From an uncultured Bacilli bacterium (lineage in GTDB: Bacteria > Bacillota_I > Bacilli_A > RF39 > UBA660): a stretch of DNA of 10,897 nucleotides. The stretch is taken from the NCBI GenBank assembly GCA_947624095.1, contig CANQIR010000028.1, positions 1 through 10,897 on the forward strand, in the 5' to 3' direction. Below, in pieces: positions 793-10,897 of the stretch (its first letter is position 1; every line of letters starts with the position of its first letter). Below the pieces are notes generated by a model that had not been told where the DNA came from, ran no database searches, and saw nothing but the letters and a program-made list of their open reading frames with translations. The position numbers and the translations under genes are program-made.

Positions 793-1458
793 ATGAAGTT
801 AGAGGATTTAAAGAAGGAATATGATAAATTACAGAAAAAGTATGGTGCGAAAGAATTAGATTCAATATATAATGGTGGATGTTCTAATGAACCAGATATT
901 TGTTTTGTTTTTATGAATCCAACGGGAAGAAATATAGCTTCTAATAAAAGTTGGCAGGGAATTAAATCACCTTGGATTGGGACAAAAAATATTTGGGATT
1001 TATTTGTTAGGGTGGATTTATTAGATAAAAAAATATATCAAAAAATTAAGACGATAAAGGGAAGTGAATGGACAGAAGAGTTTGCAAAAGAAGTTTATGA
1101 TGATGTAACTAAACATAAGTACTTTATAACTAATCTTGGTAAGTGTACGCAAGTGGATGCAAGACCTTTACCGGATAAGGTTTATAAGGAATATTTACAT
1201 TTATTAGAAAAGGAAATTGCCATTATAAAGCCAAAGGTGATTGTTCTTTTTGGCAATCAAGTAAGTTCAATTGTTCTTGGAGAAAAGATTAGTGTATCGA
1301 AATGTCGAAAGAAATTATTTCTAAAAGAGATAGATGGGGTTATATATAAGTTTTATGCTGTTTTTTATCCAGTAGGAAATGGAAGATTTAATATTGATAA
1401 GTCAATTGAAGATATTAAATATATAAGACAAGTGATAAAAGAAGAAGTTGGTGTTTAA
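793..1458 (+). CDS. Uracil-DNA-glycosylase-superfamily protein
   Basis: The 221-residue protein has the layout of the uracil-DNA glycosylase fold, whose members excise damaged or mismatched bases from DNA. A first active-site-like loop, FMNPTGRN, lies at 40-47; its Asn42-Pro43 resembles the NPG loop of Mug/TDG-type enzymes. The central strand typical of the family, IKPKVIVLFGNQ, spans 145-156. The region where family enzymes carry an HPS/HPN motif reads FYPVGNGRFN (191-200), so the usual histidine is replaced by Tyr. Another well-ordered block, TNLGKCTQVDARPLP (113-127), resembles the CRPPGNRTP region of family 4 enzymes. The cysteines (30, 37, 118, 171) are not arranged in an obvious iron-sulfur pattern. 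The fold assignment is good, but the true substrate and even glycosylase activity are inferred. The stop codon touches the start of the macro-domain gene, so the two are almost certainly co-transcribed and may be translationally coupled. Confidence 0.8.
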   Translation: MKLEDLKKEYDKLQKKYGAKELDSIYNGGCSNEPDICFVFMNPTGRNIASNKSWQGIKSPWIGTKNIWDLFVRVDLLDKKIYQKIKTIKGSEWTEEFAKEVYDDVTKHKYFITNLGKCTQVDARPLPDKVYKEYLHLLEKEIAIIKPKVIVLFGNQVSSIVLGEKISVSKCRKKLFLKEIDGVIYKFYAVFYPVGNGRFNIDKSIEDIKYIRQVIKEEVGV

Positions 1459-1974
1459 ATGGGAAAAATAAGGATGATATTAAATGATATTAGTCTTAGT
1501 GAAACGGATTGTGTAGTAAATGCTGCTAATATTAGACTGATGAATGGTTCAGGAGTTTGTGGGGCGATATTTAGAAGAGCTGGAGTGAGGGAATTAACTG
1601 AAGCTTGTATGCAGATTGGACATTGTAATGTAGGTGAAGCGGTGATAACACCAGGTTTTAATTTAAAAAGTAAATATATTATTCATACAGTGGGACCTAT
1701 CTATGATGAAGAAGATAGTAGATGTCCTAGATTATTAAGAGATTGTTATAGAAATTCTTTAGATTTAGTACTTAAAAATAATTGTAAATCAATAACTTTT
1801 CCTTTAATATCGACGGGAATATTTGGATATCCAGTTGATGAGGCGTTAGAAATAGCTATTGATACTTGTACCGAGTTTTTACAAAGTCATAAGGATGTAG
1901 ATATTTCAGTAGATTTGGCAGTTATTGATCAGGAAATTTATGAAAAGGGAGTAAATCTTATAAATAATCGATAA
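1459..1974 (+). CDS. Macro-domain protein (MacroD/YmdB-like ADP-ribose hydrolase or binder)
   Basis: Macro domains bind ADP-ribose and in many bacteria remove it from proteins, nucleic acids or O-acetyl-ADP-ribose. The 171-residue protein is a single complete domain. It has the adenine-side Asp (Asp10 in NDIS), the NAAN motif (21-24), a glycine-rich loop GSGVCGAIF (30-38), KYIIHTVGP (72-80) and the distal phosphate loop STGIFGYP (118-125). In E. coli YmdB and human MacroD1 the glycine-rich loop reads GGVDGAIH, with a catalytic Asp. Here that position is Cys34 and the following His is Phe38, so the chemistry may differ; Asn24 remains. The ATG follows the TAA of the upstream gene with no gap and only a weak AGAAG upstream, which suggests translational coupling. 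No terminator is visible after the gene. No ADP-ribosyltransferase is present in the window to serve as its partner. Confidence 0.92.
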   Translation: MGKIRMILNDISLSETDCVVNAANIRLMNGSGVCGAIFRRAGVRELTEACMQIGHCNVGEAVITPGFNLKSKYIIHTVGPIYDEEDSRCPRLLRDCYRNSLDLVLKNNCKSITFPLISTGIFGYPVDEALEIAIDTCTEFLQSHKDVDISVDLAVIDQEIYEKGVNLINNR

Positions 1975-2156: not shown

Positions 2157-5100
2157 ATGAAAAAAGTTAAATATTTTTTAGTAGTTATAGTAGCTATTTT
2201 GCTTATGCCTATATTTGTATCGGCAAGTAGTGGTATAACGCTTACAACAGATAAAAGTGATTTAGAGCTTGGTGATGAGGTTACAGTTACGGCTAAGTTT
2301 GAAGGGGAAGCCAAGATTTATGCTTTAACAGCAACTTTAAATTACGATAAAGATGTATTTGAAAGTTTGGATAGTAATAGTTTAGTTAGTTTAAATGATG
2401 CTATTGAAGTAGTTTATAATCCAGCTAATAATAAATTTGGTTTAGTTAATAAAGCTGGTGATATTGGTAATGAATTATTTGTTGTGCATTTAAAAGTTAA
2501 AAAGAATGCTAACGTAGGGGATGCTAATATTACTTTAACTAACATTACTTCTTCTGATGGGGAAGTTAAGACTGATTATGGTAAAGTTAGTACGCAAGTT
2601 TTAGTTACCAAAGATGCCGAAGATGGCGAAGTTATTCCAGTTAATCAAGAAAAGGAATTTGAAGATAGTGAAGAAAATATTATAGAAGTATTTACTAATA
2701 AACCAATACTTATTGTTTTAGCAGGAGTTTTTGTTATTCTAGGAGTTGTGGCTTTATATTTTGCAATTAAGAAGAAAAATATCAAGGTAACTCTTGGTTT
2801 AGGGGTTGCTATGGCAATTGTATTTGTTAGTACGATACCAATATTAATCATGAATAATAGTAAAAAAGATGTTAACGATGATGGAAAAAGGGATTACGAA
2901 GATACTAAGGAAATTCTTAAGTATTTAATTGAGATGGAAGGTACTAAAGAGGATGAAAGTAAACAAGAATCAACTAATAAGAATCCTAAACCATTAAAAG
3001 ATTATGATGTTAATAATGATGGTAAAGTAGATATTAATGATGCTGGTGGTAGTGCTCAGGATACAACTAATAAGACTAATTATAAAGTTAGTTTAAGTGC
3101 TACTACTGATGATGAATTCTATATTGCTAAGGGGAAAGTTACTTTAAATTTTGTTGCTAGTGTAGATCCTAACGAAAAAATTAAAGAAGTAATGGTAAAT
3201 GGTAGTTATTATCCAGTAGTCAATAATAATACATATTATAGTGTAACAGTTGATACACCTAATATTTCTGGAGTTTGTGAATTTAATATTACGAAAGTTA
3301 AATTAATCAATAATAGGGAAGTTGAAACTACATTAGGAATTAAAAAAGAAGTATTAAAAGATGCTCCATATGTTGATATGTTTAATTTTGATGATAAAAA
3401 TGATATTTTAAGTTTTAAATTGGAAGATAAAGATAAGGCGTTTATTAGTGGTCATATTGTAATTGCTGATAAAGATGGTAATGAAGTTGTTACAGAGGAA
3501 ATTCAGGAAGAAAATAGTATCCATTATGAGTTTAATATTGGAGAAAATTATTCAGTAATGATATTTGCTACTTATGATTTAGATACTAATACTTATAATA
3601 GTGTTACGGGAGATCAAAACAGAGTAGAAAATAAAGCTATTTATAGTCATAATTTATCGATAGATAAAAACTATGATTTTACGATTAAGAATATTACAAT
3701 TACTGATGCTATTGAAAAGGGAGAGAAACCAACTATTACTTTTGAAAGTACAAATAGTAAAGATTATAGTGTAGAGTATATAGTAATTAAGGGAGTTAGA
3801 TATGAAGCATCTTTGAAATATGGAACACAACAATATGTGGTAACTTTAGATGATGTTGATACTTCTAATTTTGGTAGATATTATGTGGACATTGAAGAAG
3901 TTGAAATTAGTAATTATAAAGTATTTAAGAAGGATGTTGATTATCAAGCAAATACTTTAAGTTATACTGTACTTAAAAATGCTCCAAGAGTTGAAAATAT
4001 TAAATTAGAAGATGATAAGGTTAACCAGGAAATTAAAGTTAAGTATGATGTAATTGATACTGATAAAACTTTGACTGATTTAAATTTATATTTAGTTGAT
4101 CCAGATAATAAGATAGTAAATACAATATACTCTGTACAAAATGGCGATAGTATGCCAGTATCTTATAAAGATAATTTAGCTGGTGGTTATAGTGTTAAGT
4201 TTTTAGCTGATTATAATTTAGGAACTGATAGACATAGTTATAATGATGTAAATGTTGGAGATGCTGGAATTATTACGCAAACAGATGTTAAGATTACAGG
4301 GGCGATAGTTGGAGTCAATAATAATCAAGCTAATCCTTTCCCAGTTAAGAATCAATCTAAGTATCAAATTATGTATAATATTACTTTAAGTAATGAAATG
4401 ATGAAAAAATATAATAGGTTTACTGGGGTAACAATTAATGGCTTAAATTTTGATGGATCTTCTAATGCAGTTAATGCAAGTGGTGATGGTAATACCGTTA
4501 TTAGTTTTACAGTACCAAGTGAATCTGGGGTAGTTAATTTAAAAGTTAATAGGGTAAAACTATCTGTTGAATCATATCAAGGAGTTTCACAAGCTTATTT
4601 TGCGGTAGTACCTTATGAAACCCAAATTGATGTTTTAAAAGACAAACCAACAATTGAAAATTTGGAAGTAATTGAGGAAGATTATAATACTAAGACAGTA
4701 ACCTTCAAATTTAAGGTAGTAGATGATAATGGGGGATTTGAAAGTGGTTATGTAGTTTTAGGTAACCAAAAGCAAGATATTGTTAAAGGTGAAAACACTA
4801 TTACATTTACAGGTATTGAATTAGGTAAAGATTTAGATTTAAAATTTTATGGAAATTATGATTTGGATTCTAATTCAATAGCTGGTTATGATAATACTTT
4901 AAATCATTATACTGATACGGAATTATATACAACTACTTATGGTCTTTATAGTGAAGATGTTTATGAAAATATTGAACTTATTGATGGTGTTGTAAGTAGT
5001 AATTATATTGAAAAGTTAACTGATATTCAATTAAGTTTTGGAGTTTCTACAACTGATATGGCTTTTGAAATTGATAAGGTTATTATTGATAATAAAGAAT

Positions 5101-8100
5101 ATAAAGCAGATATTAAAGATAATAATTATGTAGTAAATATTCCAGGATATAATGCTGCCGGAGTTAAAACTATTAGTATTAATGAAGTAGTATTAAAAAA
5201 TGGTAAAAAGATTACTTTGGCTAAGCCATTAGAGGTTAAAGTGGAGGTATTAAAAGATAAAGTTAGCTTATATGATTTTAAATATGAAATTAGTGATGAT
5301 AATATCAAGTTAAAGTTAAATTTAAAAGATAATGATAAAGCTATATTTGAGGATGTTAAACAAGCAGTTTTGGTTAAAGTTTATGATGAACAAAATAATT
5401 TACTATATACTTTACCTTATAGTGATGAATTAACATTTAATAGAATAAATGGAATTTTAAGATATTATATTAAGATAGAAGTTACATATGATAGAGATAT
5501 TTCTCGAGGAGGAGAAAATTATTATCAAGCGGAAAATATTTTAGATGATGTTATTTCAATAGATAAAAATTATATTGAAATAAAAGATATTACGGATGTA
5601 ACTTTATATAAACAAAATACTGATAAAACAGAAATAATTGATAAGGTAAATGTAATTGATATTGAAGCGAATACGGGAAGTTATTTCGTTATGATTACAA
5701 TGTCAAAGATGCCTAGTGTTTATGCAAAAATTAAAGAGGTTTTAGTAGAAGATAATCATTTAATTTTGATTCTTGATTATGAATATGTAGTCCAAGAGAA
5801 TAAGAAAGAAAAACAAGATTTAAGAATTGATTATGGGGAGATTGCAACAGATGGAACTGTAGAAAATACAGCTAGACCTGATTCTTTACAAACTTTAATC
5901 GAAAAGATTCAAAATAATCCAGCAGCCAATATTGTTTTAACTAGAGATTATGATATTAGTGAAATAAGTGTAATAACGGGAGCTTTATTTGATGTTAACT
6001 TTACTGGTAGTTTTGATGGTAATGGTCATACAATTAGTAATTTAAAGAATCCATTATTTAAATCAATAACTGGTGGTACTGTTAAAAATATTAAATTGGA
6101 AAAAGTTAATTTAGCTTCTAGTGTACAACAGGGAACTATTGCTAATACTGCTAGTGATGCTGATATTAACAATATTATAATTAATAATATTACGATGAGT
6201 GGTACTGGTCATGATTCGGGAGCTATTGTAGGAACAGCATCAAATGGAACAACAATTGAAAATTGTGCGGTTAAAAATTTACAATTAAATGTAGGTTGGA
6301 ATTCACAACGTAATGGTGGACTTGTTGGTACATTAAATGGTTCAACAATAAATAATTGTTATGTTAATGGTAATGTTAGTGCTAACTGGAACTATATTGG
6401 TGGGTTAGTAGGAAATGCAACAAATAGTGTTATTACTAATAGTTATGGTAAAGGTAATGTAAGTGGGGCATTGTCTTGTGAAATCAATTGTTCAACTTCT
6501 GGTAGCAATGGAAATGTAATTAAGAATAATGTAAGTTTATTTGTTGGTGCTAGAAATGGTTTTGCTAGTCGTTATGCTACATTAGAAAATAATTATCGTT
6601 TAGGTGATGTTACTGGGGCGGCGACTAATGGTCTTACTAATATTACTAAAGAACAAGTTAATACCCAATTATTTATGGATGCACAGTTTAGTAGTGATAT
6701 TTGGAATATTAGCAATGTAAATTATGATAATACACCGGTATTTAATGAAGAAAGAAAATCAGTACTAAATTTACAAGAAGTAGGAAGCAATTATGATGAA
6801 AATAAGGAATTATTATATAGTAATTTAATGTTATTAATGCCTTATTATGATAGTAGTAAAATTGTGGATAGTGCTAGAGCTATTAGTAATGATAATTTAC
6901 TTGCTACGCAAAAAATAGCTCATATTATTCCAATAGATGATGAAGGACATTTAGTATCTTATTTAACTACTGATAAACCAAATAAGATTAAACAAATTGT
7001 TTTAATATTTGATAATAATGAAGTTCAAAGATATGATGTACGTTATGATAAAACTTATGATATGATTGCTAGTTATCGAATTAATTCATTATTAATTGAT
7101 TATTCTTATAATCATTATGTAATTGATAGTAATACTCAATTAGTTAATAATTTAACAAATTATTTAGCAAGTTTAAGTTATCTTGATAATTTAGATATAT
7201 TAACTAAGAATGATGATAGTAGATTATATAGAGAATTTTATGAAGAAGTTACCAAGAATGAATTAAAAGAATTTGTTCTTAAGTATTTAGCAAATAGTAA
7301 TTATGCTATTACTAATTCTAATGAAGCAATTAGTGATTATATTGAAAGAGAAGTTAAGGAAGATCAAAAATTAGTAAAGGCTTTATATGTTTATAATTAT
7401 TTAAGAAAATTCTATAGTGTATCTTTTGATGGTGTGATGTTAAATGATTTAATATTATTTAATTCACGTGGTTTTAATACAGATTTAACTGTTGATAAGA
7501 TAACGCAATTATTCTTAAATGATGCGAAGAACTTTGATACCAATAGAACTAATGATGTATATAAAGCATTATTAAGTAAATATACTGGACTTACTAATAT
7601 TACAGATTTAATGGCTTTCTATGTTAATACTTTAACGGATTTAGATCCTGCTACGTGGTATGCACAAGAATTTAAGGGATATTTAAAGGAGATTAAAGTT
7701 GATGATAATCCTAACATTCAATATAGATTATGGGATCATTTAACTCATACAGATTTAAATACTAAGGTTTCTTGGTACAATTATGTATTACCTATATTAA
7801 CAATTCCAGAAAATGGTGCATATATCATTTCTAGTCCAGTTCAGTTTATAATTGGTTCACAAAGAACTTATATAAATGATCCGAATGATCCAGTAGAAGC
7901 TGCTAAACTTATGAAGAAAATTGAGGATTATTCGACAAGAATGAAAGATTATTATACGACAGCTTATAGGATATTACAGGATGAGAAAATATTTAATGAT
8001 ATTCATACTGTTCAAATAGATAAACGTTATGTCTATGAAAATGGGATAATGACTTTCCAAAGTCCTTATTCAACACAGGATGCCTTTCATAAGTATTTTA

Positions 8101-9392
8101 TAGAAGCTATTGGTCAATGGGCTTATAATGATTATAATGCTGCAACTGCTAATGGAGCTTATGTAATATGGCGTGTTGAAGGAGTTATGGATGGGGATTT
8201 TGATGCAGGATATGAATATACATTCCATACTTGGAGTCATGAATCAGCTCACAATATTGATGCTAGATTATTCTTAAGAAATTATGAGAGAAGATTTGAT
8301 GCTGGTGGCGAAGATTATGCAGATGGTAATTTAACTCAATCATTTGGTGATGGGGATATCGTTATGAATCTTTCTAGACATTTTACTAGTGATGCTAAAA
8401 TAAGTGCTAACTTAGATCCTAGTAGAATTGATAGTCCAAAGGAAATTAAAGATTTCTATAGTAAATTATTTGATACACTATATATTATGGATTATCTAGA
8501 AGGGCAAGCATTCTTAAAGTTATCAGCAGAAGAACAAGCTGCTTTAGCAGTGCAAGCTAATTATCCAAGAGAAAGTGAAAGCTTATTTGATGGTCAAGAG
8601 TATTTAAAGAGACAACATACGGTATATAAGGAAGTAACAGTTGAAGAAATACAACAGATGAATTTGGATGATATGGAAAGCTTATATGATGGTAGATTAG
8701 TTATGTGGCCAGGAGTTATTTATTCTACTTATACTACTAATAGGTATGGAGGAGAAAATATTTATAAGACTCGTTGGTATCAACCACATAATGATTTAGG
8801 TAGACCAGATTCTTATAGTCTTAAATGGTTAGCTTATGAAATGATGGGTTATGCTGGATATGATAAAGGATATGTTGCTTACTATAGTAATATTAATTCA
8901 GTTTCTAAATCATTCCCTTCAATTAAGGATGGTAAATTAGTTTATAATAATGAAGGAGTGCAACAATTCTATAGTGCTAATTACAAGACTGATTTGATGG
9001 CTTTAAAAGAAATAACTGGTAACGAGAATATTACTTTTAAAGATTATAAATTAGGTAGATTTGATTATGTTGCACAACATCTAAGTGATATTCAACAGAT
9101 TAATGTAAATGAATATTTTAATAAATTCTATAATGCTTTAAAAACGGATGCTACTGCGGTAATTAAAGCTCGTAAGGAAGCTATTGAGAAGTATCCTGAA
9201 GGTACAGATAATTATGTAAATAATCGTAATCAATATGTTATTAATACAAAAGCTAAAAACTTTGATAATAGCGTTGGCGTTAGAAGAGAATTATATTATG
9301 CAATGAAAAATGGTACTAATGATTTTACTGGCTTAGTATATGATTCTACTAATCAACATATTGTTAATCCATTTGTAGTTTCTGGTAATTAA
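2157..9392 (+). CDS. Giant cell-surface M26 (IgA1 protease/Zmp-like) zinc metallopeptidase with cohesin-like and dockerin-like modules
   Basis: The predicted product is a membrane-anchored extracellular zinc protease of 2411 residues. Modules in order: signal peptide (1-23, ending VSA); cohesin-like beta domain (about 26-151, with YALTATLNYD and FVVHLKVK); a hairpin of two membrane helices (about 183-204 and 211-232) joined by the basic loop KKKNIK; dockerin-like calcium loops DVNDDGKRDYED (238-249) and DVNNDGKVDIND (284-295); four beta-rich repeats (about 308-1250); a GLUG region (about 1282-1490); and an M26 domain to the C-terminus. Zinc ligands are His2028 and His2032 of HESAH with Glu2052, 24 residues after the first His, as in IgA1 protease/ZmpB. 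The C-terminal block VRRELYYAMKNGTNDF is also Zmp-like. Streptococcal M26 proteins have an N-terminal LPXTG before a similar hairpin; none is seen here. IgA, mucin-type or other host glycoproteins are possible substrates, but sequence cannot decide. The gene is monocistronic and ends at its own terminator. Confidence 0.9.
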   Translation: MKKVKYFLVVIVAILLMPIFVSASSGITLTTDKSDLELGDEVTVTAKFEGEAKIYALTATLNYDKDVFESLDSNSLVSLNDAIEVVYNPANNKFGLVNKAGDIGNELFVVHLKVKKNANVGDANITLTNITSSDGEVKTDYGKVSTQVLVTKDAEDGEVIPVNQEKEFEDSEENIIEVFTNKPILIVLAGVFVILGVVALYFAIKKKNIKVTLGLGVAMAIVFVSTIPILIMNNSKKDVNDDGKRDYEDTKEILKYLIEMEGTKEDESKQESTNKNPKPLKDYDVNNDGKVDINDAGGSAQDTTNKTNYKVSLSATTDDEFYIAKGKVTLNFVASVDPNEKIKEVMVNGSYYPVVNNNTYYSVTVDTPNISGVCEFNITKVKLINNREVETTLGIKKEVLKDAPYVDMFNFDDKNDILSFKLEDKDKAFISGHIVIADKDGNEVVTEEIQEENSIHYEFNIGENYSVMIFATYDLDTNTYNSVTGDQNRVENKAIYSHNLSIDKNYDFTIKNITITDAIEKGEKPTITFESTNSKDYSVEYIVIKGVRYEASLKYGTQQYVVTLDDVDTSNFGRYYVDIEEVEISNYKVFKKDVDYQANTLSYTVLKNAPRVENIKLEDDKVNQEIKVKYDVIDTDKTLTDLNLYLVDPDNKIVNTIYSVQNGDSMPVSYKDNLAGGYSVKFLADYNLGTDRHSYNDVNVGDAGIITQTDVKITGAIVGVNNNQANPFPVKNQSKYQIMYNITLSNEMMKKYNRFTGVTINGLNFDGSSNAVNASGDGNTVISFTVPSESGVVNLKVNRVKLSVESYQGVSQAYFAVVPYETQIDVLKDKPTIENLEVIEEDYNTKTVTFKFKVVDDNGGFESGYVVLGNQKQDIVKGENTITFTGIELGKDLDLKFYGNYDLDSNSIAGYDNTLNHYTDTELYTTTYGLYSEDVYENIELIDGVVSSNYIEKLTDIQLSFGVSTTDMAFEIDKVIIDNKEYKADIKDNNYVVNIPGYNAAGVKTISINEVVLKNGKKITLAKPLEVKVEVLKDKVSLYDFKYEISDDNIKLKLNLKDNDKAIFEDVKQAVLVKVYDEQNNLLYTLPYSDELTFNRINGILRYYIKIEVTYDRDISRGGENYYQAENILDDVISIDKNYIEIKDITDVTLYKQNTDKTEIIDKVNVIDIEANTGSYFVMITMSKMPSVYAKIKEVLVEDNHLILILDYEYVVQENKKEKQDLRIDYGEIATDGTVENTARPDSLQTLIEKIQNNPAANIVLTRDYDISEISVITGALFDVNFTGSFDGNGHTISNLKNPLFKSITGGTVKNIKLEKVNLASSVQQGTIANTASDADINNIIINNITMSGTGHDSGAIVGTASNGTTIENCAVKNLQLNVGWNSQRNGGLVGTLNGSTINNCYVNGNVSANWNYIGGLVGNATNSVITNSYGKGNVSGALSCEINCSTSGSNGNVIKNNVSLFVGARNGFASRYATLENNYRLGDVTGAATNGLTNITKEQVNTQLFMDAQFSSDIWNISNVNYDNTPVFNEERKSVLNLQEVGSNYDENKELLYSNLMLLMPYYDSSKIVDSARAISNDNLLATQKIAHIIPIDDEGHLVSYLTTDKPNKIKQIVLIFDNNEVQRYDVRYDKTYDMIASYRINSLLIDYSYNHYVIDSNTQLVNNLTNYLASLSYLDNLDILTKNDDSRLYREFYEEVTKNELKEFVLKYLANSNYAITNSNEAISDYIEREVKEDQKLVKALYVYNYLRKFYSVSFDGVMLNDLILFNSRGFNTDLTVDKITQLFLNDAKNFDTNRTNDVYKALLSKYTGLTNITDLMAFYVNTLTDLDPATWYAQEFKGYLKEIKVDDNPNIQYRLWDHLTHTDLNTKVSWYNYVLPILTIPENGAYIISSPVQFIIGSQRTYINDPNDPVEAAKLMKKIEDYSTRMKDYYTTAYRILQDEKIFNDIHTVQIDKRYVYENGIMTFQSPYSTQDAFHKYFIEAIGQWAYNDYNAATANGAYVIWRVEGVMDGDFDAGYEYTFHTWSHESAHNIDARLFLRNYERRFDAGGEDYADGNLTQSFGDGDIVMNLSRHFTSDAKISANLDPSRIDSPKEIKDFYSKLFDTLYIMDYLEGQAFLKLSAEEQAALAVQANYPRESESLFDGQEYLKRQHTVYKEVTVEEIQQMNLDDMESLYDGRLVMWPGVIYSTYTTNRYGGENIYKTRWYQPHNDLGRPDSYSLKWLAYEMMGYAGYDKGYVAYYSNINSVSKSFPSIKDGKLVYNNEGVQQFYSANYKTDLMALKEITGNENITFKDYKLGRFDYVAQHLSDIQQINVNEYFNKFYNALKTDATAVIKARKEAIEKYPEGTDNYVNNRNQYVINTKAKNFDNSVGVRRELYYAMKNGTNDFTGLVYDSTNQHIVNPFVVSGN
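3078..5906 (+). repeat. Four tandem degenerate protein repeats (205-221 residues each) in the protease stalk
   Basis: The motif VLK(D/N)(A/K)(P/V) recurs at residues 399, 605, 826 and 1031, a spacing of 206, 221 and 205 residues. In each unit it is followed by an acidic D.D-type motif (LEDKDKAF, VIDTDKTL, VVDDNGGF, LKDNDKAI) and then by an aromatic-acidic motif (TYDLDTN, DYNLGTD, NYDLDSN, TYDRDIS). It is preceded by a V.I(N/D)G or D..Y strand and an I..V.L strand. SIDKNY begins the stretch after copy 1 and again after copy 4, which suggests a fifth, half-length copy ending near residue 1250. The likely role is an extended beta-sandwich stalk holding the peptidase away from the membrane. Streptococcal Zmp proteins have comparable mid-regions, but I cannot prove homology by eye. 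Confidence 0.7.
6219..6420 (+). repeat. GLUG motifs of the protease
   Basis: Three GGLVG-type motifs occur at residues 1355 (GAIVG), 1387 (GGLVG) and 1415 (GGLVG), 28-32 residues apart. Each is followed by an I.N.Y/C-type strand such as INNCYVNGNVS and ITNSYGKGNVS. A preceding FTGSFDGNGHTISNL segment (1282-1296) is the usual lead-in. GLUG motifs commonly precede the catalytic part of M26 IgA peptidases and form a beta-helix-like module, so they support the family assignment. Confidence 0.85.
8238..8312 (+). other. Zinc-binding catalytic site of the M26 peptidase
   Basis: Codons for His2028-Glu2029-Ser-Ala-His2032 (8238-8252) form the HExxH signature, with Glu2029 as the catalytic base. The third ligand is Glu2052 (8310-8312) in GGEDYADGNLTQS. 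The downstream context NIDARLFLRNYERR...E.YA.G.LTQ matches the layout of streptococcal HEMTHN(S/F)DG...RR...E.YA.GLLQ. All catalytic residues are present. Confidence 0.9.
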
Positions 9393-9397
9393 AAAGA

Positions 9398-9430
9398 AAA
9401 GATCATTATTAAGATTTAATGGTCTTTTTT
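9398..9430 (+). terminator. Rho-independent terminator after the protease gene
   Basis: The arm AAAGATCATTA (9398-9408) pairs with TAATGGTCTTT (9417-9427) over 11 bases with one G-U wobble, around an eight-base loop. The T-run spans 9425-9430. It starts six bases after the TAA (9390-9392), so it isolates the giant gene from the ASCH-rarA unit. Confidence 0.85.
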
Positions 9431-9474
9431 ATATTGGAAAAAGTTTGGTAATAATTTTTTAATTGGGGGAGTTA

Positions 9475-9483
9475 TGATATAAT
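9475..9483 (+). promoter_or_regulatory. Extended -10 promoter of the ASCH-rarA unit
   Basis: TGATATAAT at 9475-9483 is a perfect extended -10 (TG, one base, TATAAT). The -35 region is a T-run (9455-9460) without a clear hexamer. Transcription would begin near 9490, leaving a leader of about 23 bases before the ATG at 9513. A ribosome binding site GAGGTG (9501-9506) lies in that leader, six bases before the ATG. Confidence 0.65.
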
Positions 9484-9512
9484 AATTTAGTGATATATGT
9501 GAGGTGTAATAA

Positions 9513-9851
9513 ATGATATATGAGATGTGATTACATAATGAGCCATTTAGAAAGATTGTAGAAGGGACAAAGACGATTGAATTAAGGCTTAATGATGAGA
9601 AAAGACAATTATTAAAAGAAAAGGATTTAATTAAATTTACAAATAGAAAGACTTTAGAAAGTATTGTAGTGGAAATAATTAAGTTACATAGATATTCAAG
9701 TTTTACAGAACTGTATAAACATTTTGATAAAATAGCATTGGGCTATAATGAAGATGAAGAAGCAAAACCGGAAGATATGGAACTTTATTATTCTAAGGAA
9801 GAACAGAATAAGTATGGAGTAGTGGGAATAGAAATTCAAGTTGTTAAGTAG
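9513..9851 (+). pseudogene. ASCH-domain protein gene interrupted by an in-frame TGA at codon 6
   Basis: The frame from ATG 9513 to TAG 9849-9851 encodes 112 positions. It reads MIYEM, then TGA (9528-9530), then LHNEPFRKIVEGTKTIELRL and on to the C-terminal YYSKEEQNKYGVVGIEIQVVK. The blocks EPF..I..GTKTIELRLNDEKR and the KYGVVGIEI ending are hallmarks of small stand-alone ASCH proteins, which have an RNA-binding fold related to PUA. Promoter, ribosome binding site and the frame after the TGA are all intact, so the lesion is either a very recent nonsense mutation, a sequencing error, or a TGA that is read through or decoded as Trp. The codon could derive from TGG, AGA or CGA by one change. No good start codon follows soon after the TGA; a GTG at 9669 lies inside the conserved domain and is not credible. 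The gene precedes rarA by 27 bases in one probable operon. The exact function of the family is unsettled. Confidence 0.75.
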
Positions 9852-9863
9852 TAAGAAAAAGAG

Positions 9864-9873
9864 AAAGGTGGAG
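9864..9873 (+). promoter_or_regulatory. Ribosome binding site of rarA
   Basis: AAAGGTGGAG at 9864-9873, five bases before the ATG at 9879, resembles the full anti-Shine-Dalgarno complement and fixes the rarA start. Confidence 0.75.
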
Positions 9874-9878
9874 ATTGG

Positions 9879-10897
9879 ATGGAACAGTCATCATTATTTG
9901 ATAAGCCAATGAGTGAGCCTTTAGCATCTAGAATGCGGCCAAGATCTTTAGAAGAATTTGTTGGTCAAGATCATTTGATTGGCGAAAATAAAATTTTAAG
10001 AAAGATGATTGAAAGTGATAATATATCTTCGATGATATTTTGGGGACCACCAGGAGTAGGGAAGACTACTCTAGCAAGAATTATTGCTAAATGTACTAAG
10101 TCGGAGTTTATTACTTTTTCGGCAGTAACTTCAGGAATTAAAGAAATAAAAAAAGTAATGGAGGACGCGGATAATAATAGAAATTTAGGAATAAGAACCA
10201 TTGTATTTGTTGATGAAATTCATCGTTTTAATAAAGCTCAACAGGATGCTTTTTTACCTTTTGTTGAGAAGGGAGCAATAATTTTAATTGGAGCAACAAC
10301 GGAAAATCCATCTTTTGAAGTAAATAATGCCTTGCTATCTAGATGTCGGGTATTTGTTTTAAAAGAATTAACTACCGAAGATATTTTAAATTTATTAGAA
10401 AGAGCGATTAAAGATGAGAGAGGCTTTGGTAAAGAGAATATTAAGATAACTGAGGATAATTTAAAAGTAATTGCAAAGTTTGCTAATGGAGATGCTAGAG
10501 CAGCTTTAACAACGTTAGATATGTTAGTTATTAATGGTGATGTAGATAAAGAGGGTAATATAAATATTTCTGATGAGACGATACAGGAATGTTTGACGAA
10601 AAAGACATTATTGTATGATAAAGATGGTGAAGAACATTATAATATTATTTCAGCTTTACATAAATCAATGCGAAATAGTGATCCTGATGCAGCTGTTTAT
10701 TGGTTGGCAAGAATGTTAGAAGCGGGTGAAGATCCAATTTATATAGCTAGAAGAATTACTAGGTTTGCTTCAGAAGATATTGGACTTGCGGATACTAATG
10801 CATTAAATGTGGCGATAAATGTTTATCATGCTTGTCATTTTATTGGAATGCCAGAGTGTAATGTTCATTTAGCAGAGGCAGTAATTTATATGTCGTT
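9879..10897 (+). CDS. rarA: Replication-associated recombination ATPase RarA (MgsA), 3' end cut by the window
   Basis: RarA is a cytoplasmic AAA+ ATPase of the clamp-loader/Mgs1-WRNIP1 group that acts at stalled or gapped replication forks. The 339 complete codons present cover roughly the first three quarters of a protein usually a little over 400 residues. Visible motifs: PLASRMRP (14-21), Walker A GPPGVGKT (56-63), SAVTSGIKEI (81-90), Walker B VFVDEIHRFNK (109-119), sensor 1 GATTENPSFE (138-147), Arg-finger region LLSRCR (152-157), sensor 2 GDARAAL (204-210), and the C-terminal tetramer-region signature ISALHKSMR.SDPDAA.YW.ARM (257-279). Residues 3-7, QSSLF, resemble a beta-clamp-binding peptide, which would suit a fork protein; this is inference. 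The gene lies 27 bases after the ASCH frame with its own strong ribosome binding site, so its translation need not suffer from the TGA upstream. The reading frame is open to the window edge. Confidence 0.96.
   Translation, partial: MEQSSLFDKPMSEPLASRMRPRSLEEFVGQDHLIGENKILRKMIESDNISSMIFWGPPGVGKTTLARIIAKCTKSEFITFSAVTSGIKEIKKVMEDADNNRNLGIRTIVFVDEIHRFNKAQQDAFLPFVEKGAIILIGATTENPSFEVNNALLSRCRVFVLKELTTEDILNLLERAIKDERGFGKENIKITEDNLKVIAKFANGDARAALTTLDMLVINGDVDKEGNINISDETIQECLTKKTLLYDKDGEEHYNIISALHKSMRNSDPDAAVYWLARMLEAGEDPIYIARRITRFASEDIGLADTNALNVAINVYHACHFIGMPECNVHLAEAVIYMS

Follow-up and report, generated by a model that had tools for sequence, protein, structure and literature searches.

Cellulosomal adaptor scaffoldins combine cohesin and dockerin modules in a single protein, the two being of differing types that are not known to bind each other. 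The protease described here has in common with them the presence of both modules on one protein. A further enzyme with this combination, Amy4 (Sca1) of Ruminococcus bromii, is described as having a potential for self-aggregation (PMC5814915); Amy4 differs in being an amylase of the amylosome, and the consulted part of that report mentions no membrane hairpin between its modules. The statement of the initial annotation that cohesins and dockerins normally sit on different proteins was thus too strong. The cohesin-like modules of Clostridium perfringens (2vo8, 2jh2, 2w1n) differ in that, judging by titles and names, they sit in glycoside hydrolases. On the catalytic side, the comparable systems are the Gram-positive M26 IgA1 proteases of Streptococcus and Gemella, which share with our protein a zinc-motif M26 region, an N-terminal anchor region and a large size. 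Known members are described as having an N-terminal LPXTG (PMC9637739), whereas [LIN]PxTG was found within the first 330 residues in 0 of the 60 proteins of the present type that were checked. For the IgA1 protease of the pneumococcus and related Gram-positive enzymes, a cut 56 residues past this LPXTG is reported (PMC9637739), and the mature pneumococcal enzyme is numbered from residue 154 (PMC7695701).

We analyzed a stretch of 10,897 nucleotides, hereafter the window, from an uncultured Bacilli bacterium. Its protease gene (Table 1) is a layout of known modules, newly arranged, in which a cohesin, a membrane hairpin and a dockerin precede an M26 part. No such protease layout appeared among the literature matches listed for intramolecular cohesin-dockerin binding, for dockerins with M26 or IgA1 proteases and for non-cellulosomal cohesins, which consisted of titles and abstract starts from few subscription journals. 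Elsewhere in the window (793-1974), a macro-domain gene directly follows a gene of the uracil-DNA-glycosylase superfamily.

Table 1. Coordinates of the protease gene and its parts, counted from the first nucleotide of the window.
Feature	Position	Strand	Evidence
ORF, 2411 aa, M26 (IgA1-protease family) zinc metalloprotease	2157..9392	+	Pfam and PDB matches
Signal peptide, about residues 1-24	2157..2228	+	hydrophobic N-terminus judged by eye
Cohesin module	2238..2582	+	
Membrane helix 1, residues 184-202	2706..2762	+	hydropathy; model helix 159-183 = residues 182-206
Short basic loop, cytosolic by assumption	2763..2792	+	sequence; charge count in relatives
Membrane helix 2, residues 213-231	2793..2849	+	hydropathy; model helix 186-211 = residues 209-234
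Dockerin module, insert between two calcium loops	2865..3044	+	Pfam PF00404 (length-dependent), conserved ligands
Dockerin calcium loop 1, Tyr at position 10	2868..2903	+	sequence, alignment
Dockerin calcium loop 2	3006..3041	+	sequence, alignment
Peptidase_M26_N region	5460..6182	+	PF05342, E 1.1e-20
Peptidase_M26_C catalytic region	7068..9266	+	PF07580, E 4.1e-27
HESAH zinc motif (residue 2028), Glu 20 residues downstream	8238..8252	+	sequence

Membership of the M26 family was evident from the Peptidase_M26_N and Peptidase_M26_C profiles together with an HEXXH motif and a downstream Glu, which is kept in 47/47 relatives with HEXXH. The PDB matches of the window protease (n = 5) were IgA1 proteases or one LPXTG-anchored relative, and the NCBIfam models ZmpB (172 bits) and ZmpA (164 bits) scored far below their cut-off of 3000. 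The M26 zinc residues are retained in this payload, and its function as an IgA1 protease is putative.

The reading frame, the signal peptide (judged by eye) and a two-helix membrane hairpin with the basic loop KKKNIK, all proposed in the initial annotation, were found in the hydropathy and sequence of the protein; the loop carries a net charge of +2 to +6 in 54/58 relatives counted. The cohesin proposed at residues 26-151 was likewise recovered, Pfam Cohesin (PF00963, cut-off 24.1 bits) scoring 31.3 bits over residues 28-141 when residues 1-348 were scanned, and 34.2 bits in the genome scan; the module has the cohesin fold. Cohesin was absent from the matches of a full-length Pfam scan (2411 residues, E 0.01). 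A dockerin with two calcium loops had been placed at residues 238-298, and Dockerin_1 (PF00404) matched residues 237-296. This Pfam assignment is fragile, passing or failing with the scanned length: the score was 24.9 bits against a cut-off of 22.9 for residues 1-348, 27.7 bits in the genome scan, and 20.8 bits, under the cut-off, with all 2411 residues. A relative of group B (below) reached 49.1 bits.

The dockerin is more than a chance resemblance because its calcium-ligand columns are invariant or nearly so. Among 58 aligned proteins, D238, D242, Y247 and D249 of loop 1 are among the invariant columns, and in loop 2 conservation is 90% or more at D284, N286, D288, G289 and D295. Both 12-residue calcium loops are followed by a helix in the model (model 224-238 and 270-283), and the unusual feature is a low-confidence insert between the dockerin halves (model 240-252). 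It had been suggested that loop 2 is followed by little helix and that the dockerin may be degenerate; the model instead has a 14-residue helix there (model 270-283, residues 293-306 of the window protein), and the label fits poorly since the module, while divergent, conserves its calcium ligands. A PDB search with a profile of group-A dockerins alone placed EF-hand proteins on top (E about 1e-5), with the first row of a cellulosomal complex (4fl4_A, E 0.0012) below them.

Relatives were sought in one genome per species (84,980 genomes) with an eight-sequence alignment as the query, and 59 were found, of which 44 have complete ORFs and 43 of these HEXXH. Both calcium loops were detected by pattern in 42 of the 43; in the remaining protein (L144), loop 2 lies further on, at residue 412, and the loops are 174 residues apart. 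Two sub-types were distinguished. Group A, which is window-like and comprises 65/74 proteins, has 31-172 residues from loop 1 to loop 2 (64 measured by pattern), while group B (9/74 proteins) has a canonical dockerin with a loop spacing of 34 residues (8 measured); most of its members also have a longer low-complexity linker between the cohesin and helix 1. The dockerin starts 3-17 residues past helix 2 across the set of relatives, and the cohesin of the window protein ends about 30 residues before helix 1. Alignment A3 omits L153 and L138, and the dockerin alignment A4 holds 49/57 stretches (L113, L116, L118, L127, L131, L134, L139 and L151 were omitted, mostly for length). No relatives were found in the viral contigs scanned.

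Within the family, M26_C matches occurred in 17/145 genomes, amounting to 19 genes counted by place. For 16/19 of these genes, a cohesin match shares the contig, the strand and the length of the frame; two of the others are cut at a contig end (G085, G093), and the third (G010:C13) starts at hairpin helix 1, its reading beginning about 390 bases from the contig end. Two M26_C matches (G180:C3 and G198:C1, in genomes of 0.8 Mb) contain 8 and 7 in-frame TGA codons, as is usual where TGA encodes tryptophan. Recombination is suggested by L109 and L145, two hairpin M26 proteins of a single bin that begin with the same residues and diverge thereafter. One relative (L084, 1061-5665) encodes 1535 residues with a hairpin and a cohesin match but neither dockerin nor HEXXH. 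The idea of a hairpin cassette with varied payloads was unsupported, as the candidates (L075, L076, L077, L150) look repeat-only or truncated, and no other catalytic domains were found by Pfam in the seven hairpin proteins scanned. A frame of 26,554 residues in G467 was dismissed as an artefact, with 72,000 N among 90,000 bases. Outside the family, four M26 proteins were inspected in their N-terminal stretches. Two of them (L155, L157) have a signal peptide, about 60 residues and then a two-helix hairpin, without LPXTG, and inspection of these stretches by eye revealed neither cohesin nor dockerin; within the stretches inspected, L154 shows no such helices and L156 an N-terminal helix only. 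The hairpin may therefore predate the cohesin-dockerin pair.

A scan of the window genome for other cohesins and dockerins, proposed in the initial annotation, returned two further dockerin proteins and one further Pfam cohesin. With regard to a cellulosome, in which a scaffoldin gathers dockerin enzymes through several cohesins, the count is thus 3 dockerins and 2 Pfam cohesins, each of the latter in a frame of its own, from a genome of 927 kb that is 77% complete and in which Pfam misses a cohesin-like module on contig C35. On contig C4, a papain-like protease ending in a dockerin is followed by a cohesin-bearing protein with one C-terminal membrane helix (by eye), and on C35 an SH3-domain protein ending in a dockerin is followed by a membrane protein whose N-terminus is cohesin-like. 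The M26 gene represents a third arrangement, with cohesin and dockerin within one chain. Across the family, 109/145 genomes have a dockerin and 73/145 a cohesin. The cohesin ORF begins -8 to +73 bases after the dockerin ORF in 39/40 pair regions, the exception (L170) being cut by a contig end; this is no rate, since the regions were selected for adjacent dockerin and cohesin rows. Such adjacent pairs, in many genomes of this family with genomes of about 1 Mb, perhaps represent a general surface-display scheme.

A dockerin-ended protein adjoins a cohesin-type membrane anchor in L006 (10001-15651) and L007 (2244-5873), and in L006, from a genome of about 1 Mb, a gene for CotE (outer spore coat protein E, 9376-9897) lies beside the cohesin anchor gene. 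L081 (267-5300) encodes an M60-like peptidase with two dockerin stretches and with fibronectin type III and F5/8 type C domains. Giant proteins with a C-terminal dockerin and 12 and 17 cadherin-like stretches are encoded in L079 (1913-10249) and L078 (2335-8841), and each adjoins a smaller protein with a cohesin match and a membrane helix; L078 also gave a weak N-terminal cohesin row in one scan that was absent from another.

Judged by a tree and by the loop residues, the cohesins and dockerins of the hairpin proteins form classes distinct from those of neighbouring pair systems. All 74 hairpin cohesins fell into one clade that contains 0/51 pair cohesins (support 0.693, moderate). Position 10 of loop 1 is Tyr in 73/74 hairpin proteins versus 0 of the 45 parsable pair dockerins (45/51), a count that is partly circular because the loop-1 search pattern required Tyr; the 74th hairpin protein (L080) was simply unmatched. 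In cellulosomes, this position is known to influence specificity.

We then compared evolutionary distances among the modules of the 46/60 proteins in which HEXXH and, by pattern, both loops are present. The dockerin showed a partial distance correlation of 0.40 with the cohesin, against 0.13 with the hairpin, 0.04 with the next domain and 0.05 with the protease; the value of 0.40 was reached by 0/500 permutations, in a test that ignores relatedness. From the cohesin side the covariation is not pair-specific, because the cohesin tracks the next domain equally (partial correlations of 0.405 with the next domain and 0.404 with the dockerin), and its highest raw correlation was with the next domain (0.66, versus 0.60 with the dockerin). 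Owing to this tie, the covariation offers modest support.

An AF2 single-chain model reached a pTM of 0.79 and was confident without a partner. Arithmetic with assumed errors gave a pTM of about 0.44 for an undocked cohesin, about 0.61 for a docked pair with a free hairpin and about 0.79 for full packing. Docking is here read from pTM alone, and in a monomer model binding in cis is indistinguishable from a domain swap in trans. The model and the sequences suggest that the cohesin and dockerin bind, and that they do so in cis. We give about an even chance to the N-terminus being a self-docking membrane anchor with its cohesin and dockerin bound within one chain. After cleavage of the signal peptide, the cohesin would lie outside, tethered to helix 1, and helix 2 would return outward and run within a few residues into the dockerin. 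Both modules should therefore face outward, and they could meet at the outer membrane face because the dockerin starts so soon after helix 2. The two modules of the same chain would then bind each other with calcium. More speculatively, cleavage of the chain might occur within the dockerin insert or close to helix 2, much as a cut past the N-terminal anchor motif is reported for the pneumococcal IgA1 protease. We would guess that the pair may then retain the cleaved enzyme, the clasp tethering it to the cell for as long as calcium is present. It was ruled out that the clasp replaces LPXTG for want of a sortase, as sortases were found in 129/145 family genomes, with three matches in the window genome.

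The initial annotation had offered three readings: intramolecular locking, homotypic polymerisation and a hub for other surface enzymes. Locking within the chain emerged as the best supported, though indirectly, by the conserved layout, the model and its pTM, the tree and Tyr residue, the closeness of the dockerin to helix 2 and the covariation, and a cis clasp is the simplest reading, which we favour. The main rival is homotypic pairing in trans, in which adjacent protease molecules would be linked, cohesin to dockerin, into membrane dimers or chains. Its interface would be the same as in cis, and the long linkers of most group B members would give it reach. Binding in trans nevertheless appears unlikely given the short distances of both modules from their helices, the confidence of the single-chain model without a partner, and the advantage that local concentration would confer on binding in cis.

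A hub would mean either that the cohesin draws in dockerin proteins from elsewhere or that the protease uses its dockerin to lodge on other cohesin anchors; its potential partners would be the two other dockerin proteins and the other Pfam cohesin of the window genome. Both of those dockerin proteins, however, precede a membrane protein of their own, as in the adjacency-selected regions, and loop-1 position 10 differs while the cohesin clades separate; dockerins also extend well beyond the M26 genes (109 versus 17 of the 145 genomes). We accordingly disfavour the hub as quite improbable. That the modules are relics, remnants of folds serving as spacers only, would suit the inserts that set the group A loops so far apart and the one relative without a dockerin (L084). 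Against this, few columns are as well conserved as those of the calcium ligands. The mean distance was 0.42 in the dockerin halves and 0.49 in the cohesin, as compared with 0.47 in the protease core; the modules thus change about as fast as the catalytic part, and a relic is in our judgment likewise quite improbable.

The fullest form of the favoured cis clasp combines several steps: an intramolecular, calcium-dependent clasp across the hairpin, at the site where kin have their sortase signal, would hold the cleaved protease and release it as calcium falls, in a small-genome lineage of the rabbit gut. As a whole, this combination is tentative and would have to be called unlikely. The rabbit host is inferred from the sample name, all 59 named relatives (59/59) deriving from Lapin-nnn records ('Lapin' being French for rabbit), of which 54 are labelled 'uncultured Bacilli' and 5 'uncultured Clostridia'. 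The restriction to rabbits may reflect search or sampling because the search patterns derived from close relatives. Rabbits are described as having 14-15 IgA subclasses (PMC6082545, PMC10435986), and those rabbit IgA hinges that were tested are reported to resist the IgA protease of C. ramosum (PMC9247829). An arms race between this protease and rabbit IgA is an attractive, speculative reading.

The main known role of cohesin-dockerin pairs is to join one protein to another. If the reading in cis is true, their conserved placement on either side of a membrane hairpin would put these modules to a new use, as a reversible clasp for surface proteins, and it could show how an enzyme of the IgA1-protease type stays on the cell without a sortase motif at its N-terminus. 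Should the link to rabbits hold, a diversified set of proteases would be paired with an unusually expanded IgA system.
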